Below are positions 2,773 through 23,783 of a stretch of DNA of 64,000 bases, in pieces (positions within the stretch are counted from its first letter, which is position 1; the number at the start of each line of letters is the position of its first letter). Source of the stretch: Chryseobacterium sp. SNU WT5 (GTDB taxonomy: Bacteria > Bacteroidota > Bacteroidia > Flavobacteriales > Weeksellaceae); contig NZ_CP041687.1 in NCBI RefSeq assembly GCF_007362475.1, positions 2,418,001-2,482,000 of the forward strand. Direction: 5' to 3'. The position numbers and the translations under genes were made by a program. Below the pieces are notes generated by a model. That model searched no databases and had not been told where the DNA came from. It was given only the letters and a program-made list of their open reading frames with translations.

Positions 2773-2914
2773 AATTTTATTCTTAAATGTTTAAGTCGTA
2801 AATTTAATATTTTATTTTATACTTTTAGCTTTAAATCAAAGAGATGTTAAAAAATAAATAGGAATAATTTTCTATATTTCAATTATTTATAGGTTCTTAA
2901 CAATTTTTAATCAA

Positions 2915-17938: not shown

Positions 17939-18844
17939 ATGAATATTTTTAGTTTTGGCGTAGAGTTTAGCAGTGAAGAGGATTGTATATCTCATTTCAA
18001 AGCAGAACGTGACAAAATTGGTGTTTCCTGCAAGTGCGGAAAAACTGATTTTTTTTGGATTAAAAGCAGATTAAGTTACGAGTGTAAATCTTGTAGAAAG
18101 CGAACTTCATTACGAAGTGGAACCATCATGGAGAATTCCAATTTGTCCTTTCTAGTTTGGTATAAAGCGATGTTTTTGATGAGTGCAACAAAAAAGGGAT
18201 TTTCTGCTAAAGAAATGCAAAGGCAATTAGGTTTGAAGCGCTATGAGCCAGTTTGGGCCATGATGCACAAATTGAGAAAAGCGATGGGAAAACGAGATGA
18301 AAGATACACTTTAGAGGGCATGATTGAAATGGATGAAGGGTATTTTACAGTTGAATCTAGAGAACTGGAACAAGAGAAAGGGATTCGTGGAAGAGGTGCA
18401 GTTGGAAAGCAAAATGTTGCAGTGATGGCGGAATCTACGCCATTAGAAAATATAGAAACGGGAGAGACATCGAAATCTTGTAGATATTTTAAAGCAATAG
18501 TATTAGAAGATCATACAGCAGAGGGAATTAATGAGACTATTAAAGAATCTTTGGCAGAATCCAGCATAGTTTTTACAGATCAAAGCACGTCATATGTTGA
18601 TATATCACAACTTGTAGAAATTCATATTTCAGAAAAATCTTCGAAAGAAACTACAAAAGATACTTTGCGTTGGGTTCACATATTTATCAGTAATGCGAAA
18701 AGGAATTTATTAGGAAATTACCACAAAATAAAACGCAAAAACCTTCAACTTTATCTAAATGAGTTTGTTCATAAGTTAAATCGGAGATATTTTGAAGATA
18801 AACTGTTCGATAGACTTGTGATAGCAAGCATTACAGGAGTATGA
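17939..18844 (+). CDS. IS1595-family transposase (ISXO2-like DDE domain)
   Basis: The 301-residue transposase starts with a zinc-ribbon: CKCGK near residue 33 and CKSCRK near 53. A helix-turn-helix-like stretch KEMQRQLGLKRYEPVWAMMHKLRKA follows. The ISXO2-type catalytic core has Asp in IEMDEGYF near residue 132 and Asp in VFTDQSTSY near 218. The expected third position falls in ISNAKRNLLGNYH, giving Asn-x-Lys in place of an acidic residue. From memory this is the DDNK layout of one IS1595 subgroup rather than a defect. The C-terminus has YLNEFVHKLNRR, as in relatives. The frame is intact. Confidence 0.9.
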   Translation: MNIFSFGVEFSSEEDCISHFKAERDKIGVSCKCGKTDFFWIKSRLSYECKSCRKRTSLRSGTIMENSNLSFLVWYKAMFLMSATKKGFSAKEMQRQLGLKRYEPVWAMMHKLRKAMGKRDERYTLEGMIEMDEGYFTVESRELEQEKGIRGRGAVGKQNVAVMAESTPLENIETGETSKSCRYFKAIVLEDHTAEGINETIKESLAESSIVFTDQSTSYVDISQLVEIHISEKSSKETTKDTLRWVHIFISNAKRNLLGNYHKIKRKNLQLYLNEFVHKLNRRYFEDKLFDRLVIASITGV

Positions 18845-21142: not shown

Positions 21143-21712
21143 ATGAAAAATATTGTTGTTTTAGTTTCAGGAGGCGGAACAAATTTGCAAAGAATCATCG
21201 ATTGCATTGAAAATGGAGAAATTCCGAACGCAAGAATTTCTTTGGTCATTGCAGATCGGGAATGTTTTGGTTTGGTAAGAGCGAGAAACCACAACATTGC
21301 TGCTCAACTAATCCCAAGAGGCAAATCTTTCTCCGCGGAACTAAAAAATGCTCTTCCAGAACACACCGATTTAATTGTCCTTGCTGGATTCTTATCCATT
21401 TTAAATAAAGAATTCTGTGAATCGTTTAATGGAAAGATTATTAATATTCATCCAGCCTTATTGCCGAAATATGGAGGGAAAGGAATGTGGGGACATCATG
21501 TTCATGAAGCGGTTTTAGCTGCAAATGAAAAACAAAGTGGTGCAACTGTACATTATGTAAATGCGGAGATTGACGAAGGGCAGATTATTTTACAGAAATC
21601 TTTTGAAATTGCACCTAACGAAACATTAGAATCATTGGCAAAGAAAATTCATGAGGTAGAATTTGAAATATTTCCAAGGGCCATTAATAAAGTTCTAGGA
21701 ATTCCCCTCTAG
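21143..21712 (+). CDS. purN: phosphoribosylglycinamide formyltransferase
   Basis: PurN transfers a formyl group from 10-formyl-THF to GAR. The protein (189 residues) has VLVSGGGTNLQRIID at the start, VLAGFLSILNKEFC, and the catalytic block NIHPALLPKYGGKGMWG with Asn and His, followed by SGATVHYVNAEIDEGQIILQ with the active-site Asp. The last codons and the TAG stop lie inside the left palindromic repeat of the DUF559 cassette. The C-terminal IPL and the stop were therefore probably supplied by the insertion. The catalytic part is unaffected. Confidence 0.95.
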   Translation: MKNIVVLVSGGGTNLQRIIDCIENGEIPNARISLVIADRECFGLVRARNHNIAAQLIPRGKSFSAELKNALPEHTDLIVLAGFLSILNKEFCESFNGKIINIHPALLPKYGGKGMWGHHVHEAVLAANEKQSGATVHYVNAEIDEGQIILQKSFEIAPNETLESLAKKIHEVEFEIFPRAINKVLGIPL

Positions 21713-21739
21713 TAAGAGGGGTGTCCGAAGGACGGGGTG
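21702..21739 (+). repeat. left REP-like palindromic repeat
   Basis: CCCCTC (21704-21709) pairs with GAGGGG (21716-21721). Then GTCC-GAA-GGAC (21723-21733) forms a second small hairpin, and GGGGTG (21734-21739) ends the unit. The purN stop codon is the loop start of the first hairpin. Confidence 0.8.
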
Positions 21740-21752
21740 TGTATTTGTTAAT

Positions 21753-22169
21753 ATGGATAGAAAGCTATTAACACGTATTGACGGAGTAGAAATCTTTCGA
21801 AGAAAAATAGAAGTGCTTCCAAAGAACAAAGAACTTTTAGCCAGATCACGAAGTTTAAGAAAAGGCTATGTTTTGTCAGAAGTTATATTTTGGAAACAGG
21901 TTAAAAGTAAAGATTTTCATCAAATTGATTTTGACAGACAAAGAATAATTGGAAATTATATTGTTGATTTCTATATTAAATCTTTAGGACTTGTTATAGA
22001 AATAGATGGTTCAAGTCATGATGATAAAGAAGAATATGATGGAAGAAGACAATTGTTTTTTGAGAGATTAAATTTGAAAGTTTATAGAATTTTAGATTTT
22101 AGAGTTAAGCATGATTTAGCAAATGTCATGAAAGAATTAGAAGAATATATTATAGAGTATTTCTCATAA
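21753..22169 (+). CDS. DUF559 endonuclease-like protein (Vsr/PD-(D/E)XK fold)
   Basis: The 138-residue protein belongs to the DUF559 family, related to very-short-patch repair endonucleases. Residues 20-50 are basic (KNKELLARSRSLRKGYVLSE). The nuclease core has FWKQVKSKDF, FDRQRIIGNYIVDFYI with the catalytic Asp near residue 73, and LVIEIDGSSHD near 81-91 with the Glu-x-Asp pair. RRQLFFERLNLKVYRI completes the core. No other domain is present. It sits 40 bp after purN between inverted repeats. Whether it cuts DNA, helps the repeats spread, or acts in repair is not known. Confidence 0.85.
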   Translation: MDRKLLTRIDGVEIFRRKIEVLPKNKELLARSRSLRKGYVLSEVIFWKQVKSKDFHQIDFDRQRIIGNYIVDFYIKSLGLVIEIDGSSHDDKEEYDGRRQLFFERLNLKVYRILDFRVKHDLANVMKELEEYIIEYFS

Positions 22170-22179
22170 TTATAGCAAA

Positions 22180-22220
22180 CACCCCGCCTTCGGCACCCCT
22201 CTTTCAAAAAGAGGGGAATT
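22180..22220 (-). repeat. right REP-like palindromic repeat, inverted copy
   Basis: On the minus strand it reads CCCCTCTTT-TTG-AAAGAGGGG, then GCC-GAA-GGC, then GGGGTG. Compared with the left copy, the second hairpin has lost one base from each arm (T and A), so pairing is kept. Confidence 0.8.
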
Positions 22221-22265: not shown

Positions 22266-23783
22266 ATGTCAAAAAAAAGAGCGCTAATCTCTGTTTCCGA
22301 TAAATCCGGTCTCATTGATTTTGCAAAATTTTTAGAAGCAAACAATTACGAATTAATTTCCACTGGAGGAACTTTTAAACATTTAAAAGAAGCAGGTTTA
22401 AATCCAATTCAGATTGATGAAGTAACCAATTTCCCTGAAATGCTGGACGGCAGAGTGAAGACTTTACATCCGAAAGTACATGGTGGGTTGTTAGCAGTTC
22501 GTGATAATGATCAACACATTTCTACCGTGCAGGAACACAATATTGAGTTGATAGACATGGTTATTGTCAATCTTTATCCGTTTTTTGCCCATGCTAACAC
22601 CAATATTTCTTTAGAGGAAAAAGTAGAGTTCATCGATATCGGCGGACCTTCTATGTTACGCTCTGGGGCGAAAAACTTTCAGTCAGTTGCTGTAGTTACA
22701 GATGTGCAAGACTATGCCATCATTCAAAAAGAAATGTCCGAATCGGGAGATACGACTTTAGAAACAAGAAAGAAATTAGCGGGTAAAGTATTTAATCTTA
22801 CTGCTGCGTACGATGCTGCAATCTCACAAATGCTTTTAGATGAAGATTATCCACACTATTTAAACGCTTCTTATCAAAAAGTTTCTGACTTACGATATGG
22901 CGAAAATCCACATCAAACCGCTGCCTATTATGTTTCTACAACCGAAAACGGTGCGATGAAAGATTTCGAAATTTTGGGAGGTAAAGAATTATCTTTCAAT
23001 AATCTGAGAGATATGGATTTATGCTGGAAGGTGGTTAATGAATTTAAAGATGAAATGGCTTGCTGCGCAGTAAAACATTCAACACCATGTGGCGTTGCAA
23101 TTGGAACATCAGCGGTAGCAACTTATAAGAAAACTTTCGAATGTGATCCAATTTCTATTTTTGGAGGAATTATTGGTATGAACTTTAAAGTAGATTTAGC
23201 GACTGCCGAAGAGTTAAACAAAACATTTTTAGAAATCGTAATGGCTCCGGATTTTGATGAAGATGCAATCGCTTTTCTAAAAACAAAGAAGAATCTGAGA
23301 ATTATTAAAATTAAAAACTCAGTTTCTGACAGTCAAGCTTGGGTGAAGATCGATGGTGGAATGTTAGTTCAGGATAATGATAATCAATTCTCTGAAGATA
23401 TTAAAGTAGTTACCGATAAAAAGCCAACCGAAGAACAGGAAAAAGCTTTATTATTTGCTCAGCGAGTGGTAAAATATGTAAAATCTAATGCAATCGTAGT
23501 TTCCAATGGTGTACAGGCTTTGGGAATTGGAGGTGGTCAGGTGAATAGGATTTGGGCAACGCAACACGCGATTGAAAGAGCGAAAGTGAAGTTTGATGGA
23601 GACCTCGTTCTGGCTTCAGATGCATTTTTCCCTTTCCGTGATGTGGTAGAGTTCTGTGCGAAGGAAGGAATTAAAGCCATTATTCAACCTGGTGGAAGTA
23701 TGAAGGATCAGGAAAGTATCGATGCAGCAAACGAGTATGAGATTCCGATGATGTTGACGGGAATGCGTCATTTCTTGCATTGA
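22266..23783 (+). CDS. purH: bifunctional AICAR formyltransferase / IMP cyclohydrolase
   Basis: PurH carries out the last two steps to IMP. The N-terminal cyclohydrolase domain (about 1-195) shows [48 protein letters not shown] and the [15 protein letters not shown] loop. The C-terminal transformylase (about 196-505) shows [27 protein letters not shown] with the catalytic Lys-His, [19 protein letters not shown] and [12 protein letters not shown]. At 505 residues it is full length. It follows the DUF559 cassette and precedes purD. Confidence 0.97.

Follow-up and report, generated by a model that had tools for sequence, protein, structure and literature searches.

A DUF559 nuclease gene bordered by inverted, triplex-type repeats interrupts the purine gene row of Chryseobacterium sp. 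SNU WT5 and belongs to a widespread gene-repeat association

The purN and purH genes of Chryseobacterium sp. SNU WT5 (genome size, 3.04 Mb; nearest named relatives, Kaistella antarctica and K. yonginensis) are separated by a small DUF559 nuclease gene that is transcribed in the same direction as both neighbors and has a copy of a short repeat on each side, in inverted orientation (Table 1); the whole 64-kb stretch of DNA analyzed here is referred to as the window. An earlier note on this DNA had described a nuclease gene between purN and purH and two inverted repeat copies with two hairpins each, and both descriptions are confirmed, the first by the open reading frames and Pfam matches and the second by the sequence and by single-strand folding compared with shuffles. 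The purN stop codon lies within the left repeat, such that the final purN codons (ending in GIPL and the stop) are repeat sequence, and in repeat-free relatives the PurN C terminus is about four residues earlier.

Table 1. Features of the purN-purH locus and of a related insertion elsewhere in the same genome
Feature	Position	Strand	Sequence, match, or remark
IS1595-family transposase gene	17939-18844		Upstream in the window
purN (phosphoribosylglycinamide formyltransferase)	21143-21712	+	ORF; PF00551, E=5.5e-42
purN stop codon	21710-21712		TAG
Left repeat	21700-21742	+	AATTCCCCTCTAGTAAGAGGGGTGTCCGAAGGACGGGGTGTGT; in order AATT, pyrimidine arm, loop, purine arm, hairpin 2, third strand
Left repeat, pyrimidine arm	21704-21710		CCCCTCT
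Left repeat, purine arm	21715-21721		AGAGGGG
Left repeat, segment with hairpin 2 inside	21722-21733		
Left repeat, third strand	21734-21740		GGGGTGT
DUF559 nuclease gene (138 aa)	21753-22169	+	PF04480, E=3.7e-23
Right repeat (inverted)	22179-22220	-	AATTCCCCTCTTTTTGAAAGAGGGGTGCCGAAGGCGGGGTGT; AATT, pyrimidine arm, purine arm, hairpin 2, third strand, with the third-strand end toward the gene
purH (downstream in the interrupted pur row)	22266-23783	+	PF01808, PF02142
DUF559 insert and repeats in the leucyl-tRNA synthetase gene	Contig positions 1813000-1817500, at 1167-1624 and 2873-2902		Outside the window

As single strands, both window repeats fold into two hairpins (z-scores of -3.4 and -3.8), and none of 200 shuffles folds as well. 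The repeats contain three matching strands (CCCCTCT/AGAGGGG/GGGGTGT), in which the GGGGTG(G/T) that follows hairpin 2 is the mirror of the hairpin 1 purine arm with T opposite each A, as the third strand of a purine-motif triplex requires. The second loop is 10 to 12 nt long and holds hairpin 2, the stem of which is 3 to 4 bp in the window copies. A triplex-motif finder applied to the whole window reports exactly two places, which are the two flanking repeats, and the repeat pattern is absent from shuffled sequence. Judged from its sequence, the repeat thus fits a candidate purine-motif intrastrand triplex in which the connecting loop holds another hairpin. An Rfam search gave no match, and a known RNA element was therefore rejected as an explanation.

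Covariation among relatives is seen in both parts of the structure. When equal-length repeats of relatives are aligned, hairpin 2 shows full compensatory change, with one pair appearing as C-G, T-A, and G-C and with six changed pairs in a longer class of repeats, and its covariation scores exceed those of all 500 shuffles (0/500) and all slid controls. Triad covariation was scored across 148 distinct repeats whose 7-bp stem is perfect, counted as sequences and not as independent events: stem pair 2 is C.G with a third-strand G (139 sequences) or T.A with A (5 sequences), and stem pair 7 is C.G with G (133 sequences) or T.A with T (11 sequences), with few exceptions at either position. The five sequences with T.A and a third-strand A all belong to one related group, which counts against the reading that we favor below. 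Three other loci carry the variant CTCCTCC/GGAGGAG/GAGGTGG, a joint change in all three strands.

The position of the hairpins at gene ends is also what would be expected if this were an ordinary repair or defense nuclease gene, with the hairpins on either side terminating transcription or stabilizing mRNA in the operon, and the Vsr-like fold of the protein (see below), its weak similarity to a restriction-enzyme model, and the link of a Caulobacter DUF559 protein to DNA damage (PMC12907096) are in keeping with this. We regard it as very improbable, because there is no T-run 3' of the window hairpins, PIT/BoxC elements showed neither promoter nor terminator activity in published assays (PMC4666352), copies of the same repeats are found within reading frames and scattered in the absence of DUF559, and a terminator has no need of third-strand covariation.

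The 138-aa protein matches PF04480 with 81.9 bits (curated cutoff, 20.6), and its structure model (pLDDT 90.8) predicts a PD-(D/E)XK/Vsr-type fold. The closest solved fold is that of the gonococcal DUF559 protein NGO0050 (3hrl; E=4.3e-5), followed by the catalytic domain of the homing endonuclease I-Bth0305I (3r3p; E=8.5e-4, TM-score of 0.79 by target), with the Vsr structures 1vsr and 1cw0 further down the list of matches. A PADLOC match is only weak, and the protein was not taken to be a known defense protein. Conserved residues are E43, D72, E83, D85, and H89, with E43 and E83 invariant in 81 sequences and D72 present in 80 of the 81, and dN/dS values of 0.04 to 0.23, with 0.06 to 0.23 for the gene's own lineage, indicate purifying selection. 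The window's copy retains both D85 and H89, as do all 72 relatives located at other sites, but a few sister species that carry the gene at the purN site have lost one or the other, which is a further point against the favored reading. In one purN-purH unit (L092) the D85/H89 motif is lost and about 280 extra bases lie between the left repeat and the gene.

The association of DUF559 with such repeats extends far beyond this locus. When a triplex finder that uses only the three-strand pattern is applied within 400 bp of DUF559 genes, the motif is found at 75/80 loci of named relatives, 18/20 loci of more distant Bacteroidota, 8/13 loci in the class that includes genome G682, and 15/19 other records; the corresponding control windows 1 kb away give 0/158, 1/36, 1/26, and 0/3, respectively, and shuffled flanks give none. 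Repeats of this kind border the 30 best homologues in the family and nearly every one of the 80 named relatives (Flavobacterium, Chryseobacterium, Polaribacter, Mariniflexile, and others), and repeat-flanked DUF559 genes are also present outside the Bacteroidota, in Sinorhizobium, Sphingomonas, Novosphingobium, Deinococcus, and Neisseria gonorrhoeae.

At the level of whole genomes, a survey of 296 members of the family for the repeat with and without DUF559 finds repeats in 128/130 genomes with a close DUF559 gene versus 59/166 without one (Fisher odds ratio, 116; p=2.7e-34). Repeats could instead be spread by another enzyme (a RAYT or IS200-type transposase) or by replication slippage, with DUF559 a passenger that inserts into or between them; Y1 transposases are present in 226/296 of these genomes, the window's own among them, and, in the absence of DUF559, inverted repeats also occur as compact dimers with a spacing of about 48 nt. 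Once genus is controlled, however, DUF559 tracks the repeats (odds ratio, 52; chi2, 65) and the Y1/RAYT family PF01797 does not (odds ratio, 1.6; chi2, 1.3; not significant), and for repeats beyond the two flanking copies the odds ratios are 13 and 2.9, respectively. The passenger explanation is accordingly improbable, and RAYT was rejected as the repeat mover since Y1 presence fails to track repeats within genera. The arrangement that the earlier note had read as a repeat-associated unit, with a nuclease in the position of the RAYT, is thus supported. Counted against the favored reading are the 59 of 187 repeat-bearing genomes without a close DUF559, for which gene loss or another enzyme is needed.

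Most repeats are not part of a unit. Solo repeats reach 32 copies per genome in relatives and number at least 10 per unit in many genomes, while in the window's genome the exact repeat pattern is confined to the two copies that flank the gene. REPIN-like dimers were considered as the main repeat form and rejected, as 101/144 of the places listed are single, with no neighbor within 700 bp. A DNA search around one locus (L025) for solo-repeat polymorphism led to a repeat-rich region.

The purN-purH boundary was read in 30 genomes of the genus: 24 have no repeat there, 2 have only a scar, and 4 have the unit, with two further genus members having the unit at purN-purH by coordinates. The two scars consist of the unit's two outer ends with everything between them deleted. 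In three genomes the purN-purH spacer is 784 to 1229 bp long and unrelated in sequence to the unit, so this boundary receives other inserts too. Rather than being fixed at one locus in all relatives with no copies elsewhere, the unit has empty sites, solo repeats, and many alternative sites, with the 80 named loci falling into about 43 flanking contexts. In a DUF559 tree each well-sampled site corresponds approximately to one clade, and the purN-site clade sits among Flavobacteriaceae sequences, apart from other Weeksellaceae DUF559 genes, indicating one arrival followed by vertical descent.

Target sites record varied outcomes. At a Flavobacterium uvrA site, the uvrA 3' end is directly repeated beyond the unit for 58 to 98 bp at 9/11 loci, and at another site a similar direct duplication of 38 to 112 bp is present at four loci. 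The 3' parts of the uvrA duplicates are nearly identical in some species, as though they were kept alike by conversion. A fixed short target duplication was rejected because outcomes vary (38 to 112 bp or none), and for the same reason, together with the lack of a DDE domain in the unit, so was a DDE insertion sequence or MITE. On two Sphingomonas parapaucimobilis plasmids, DUF559 units separate sufB from sufC and transhydrogenase subunit genes from each other, and are thus inside operons like the purN-purH unit. A metagenome bin labeled Alphaproteobacteria (L199) has a Bacteroidota-like DUF559 with a repeat in a larger open frame.

Repeats and whole units also enter reading frames. In Chryseobacterium, a gene of 355 codons has the sequence KKWLSENGKVQEKCGL in its empty form and KKWLSEFPSAGGVSVGRGGLSQEKCGL with a solo repeat, a net gain of 33 nt that maintains the frame, and decayed forms of this insertion are present in other species. 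Whole DUF559 units lie in frame inside HsdR, RM-like proteins, and PheT. The genome of the window itself has a second DUF559 in frame within the editing-domain region of leucyl-tRNA synthetase, between two BoxC-type repeats (Table 1), and a third, solo repeat is in frame in the same protein shortly before the KMSKS motif. A third DUF559-like match in this genome is the C-terminal part of a helicase-like protein and is probably an ordinary domain fusion.

Sites in or beside conserved genes (purN, uvrA, HsdR, LeuRS, and PheT) are reminiscent of a free-standing homing endonuclease, in which case DUF559 would cut allelic empty sites in conserved genes, break repair would copy the gene, and the repeats would only insulate the gene or mark the target, with solo repeats as remnants of old units. 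I-Bth0305I is the nearest functional solved relative, a cyanobacterial DUF559 gene has been placed in the EDxHD homing family (PMC9403480), and the scars in two genus members resemble decayed units. We nonetheless think this unlikely, since solo repeats outnumber units by at least 10 to 1 in many genomes and are complete elements of 40 to 50 nt at sites that have no trace of a former gene and whose orthologues are repeat-free.

On balance we favor the reading that the unit is a selfish, slow, and mostly immobile repeat-plus-nuclease cassette, in which DUF559 serves a triplex-repeat family in a RAYT-like manner without being a RAYT. The repeats would be the replicating units, and the nuclease would act on the repeat family in trans, as RAYTs do for REPs. 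It may recognize the folded repeat once this is single-stranded and may cut at or near it, or at the target; host repair would then copy the repeat, and on rare occasions the entire unit, to another site, with the target either losing a little sequence or gaining a duplication that may reach about 100 bp. Enzymes of the PD-(D/E)XK type only cut, which counts against this reading; cutting combined with host repair would explain both the variable loss or duplication at targets and the absence of a transposase. That DUF559 cuts the repeat, that the triplex is what it recognizes, and that cutting drives copying are all proposals drawn from these associations.

The description of this DNA as a mobile or repeat-spreading unit therefore stands in part. 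Empty sites, alternative sites, and solo repeats speak for it, but rapid or current mobility at this locus is not borne out, as there are only two flanking copies, the sites are inherited clade-wide, and sister species show erosion of catalytic residues. We infer that the unit has been mobilized; the sites are long established and stable, and movement itself was not seen. The small number of copies in this genome and the loss of D85 or H89 in sister species suggest that the system is nearly dormant in the window's lineage.

Because the family accompanies such repeats across very different bacteria, DUF559 makes a good candidate for the enzyme responsible for spreading a class of bacterial repeats that is common and unexplained. 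A broader and more tentative proposal, which we hold to be possible, is that DUF559 nucleases are the dedicated mobilizing enzymes of bacteria-wide intrastrand-triplex repeats, making up a third type of mobile element in addition to HUH and DDE systems, and that they can also enter essential genes in frame without splicing. These repeats would include BoxC/PIT/TM of Escherichia coli and Neisseria, the two-hairpin repeats of Bacteroidota, GGAGGTGGC/GACGGAGGGG of sphingomonads, and perhaps CGTC-tagged REPs. If correct, DUF559, an ill-defined domain family, gains a role, and a selfish nuclease unit resides in frame in essential genes (leucyl-tRNA synthetase) with neither an intein nor an intron. 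The tie between the DUF559 family and triplex-type repeats holds in several phyla and includes E. coli K-12 (ycjD), so that the question of the missing mobility gene is testable in laboratory strains. In the open-access journal papers searched, none was seen to link DUF559 to repeats, and a search with the literal repeat strings returned nothing relevant; an earlier description in other literature is possible.

Among known systems, the unit is organized like REPIN/RAYT (REPtron) systems, in which a single nuclease gene also lies between inverted short palindromic repeats, solo repeats are dispersed, the gene is mostly vertically inherited, and the repeats are the more numerous replicators. It differs in coding for a DUF559 Vsr-like nuclease rather than a Y1 HUH transposase, with no Y1 match in the unit, and its repeats lack a GTAG tag, are mostly singlets, and have a third-strand (triplex) architecture. 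The repeat dispersal typical of REPtrons is seen in many relatives, with up to 32 copies, whereas the window's genome has 2.

The repeats share with BoxC/PIT/TM_ECO a pyrimidine arm, a purine arm, and a mirrored purine third strand, and both window repeats have the three stems of the purine motif. The E. coli BoxC/PIT/TM elements form triplexes in vitro, DMS footprinting gave no support for a triplex in vivo (a point counted against the favored reading), and no mobility gene was reported nearby (PMC4666352). That survey covered three stems of 6 to 15 nt and loops of 1 to 6 nt (PMC4666352), and would thus have missed repeats whose loop 2 holds a hairpin, the second loop of the window repeats exceeding this range. 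Next to E. coli ycjD, a DUF559 gene, a single clear BoxC-type copy that carries one mismatch in its stem lies on the downstream side only, and ycjD was therefore rejected as a perfect inverted-repeat unit.

CGTC-tagged REPs, including the Rickettsia RPE, have no known dedicated transposase, and their in-frame insertion in genes has been reported (PMC3733652). On the other strand, hairpin 2 of the longer repeats corresponds to CGTC-stem-loop-stem-(G)CCA, which in Chryseobacterium is CGTC-AAAAATTC-TTT-GAATTTTC-GCCA; CGTC-tagged REPs have a CGTC tag, an 8- to 9-bp stem, and a CCA tail, and the hairpin 2 stems of the window copies are shorter. EDxHD homing endonucleases such as I-Bth0305I share the nuclease fold and selfish insertion in or beside conserved genes, but they sit in introns, inteins, and phage intergenic sites and have long DNA-binding extensions (PMC3943268), whereas the DUF559 protein has no extension and its gene is bounded by folding repeats. 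The Vsr mismatch endonuclease shares the fold and the acidic/His motif with the DUF559 protein, which differs in having no cytosine methylase gene adjacent here and in being associated with repeats.
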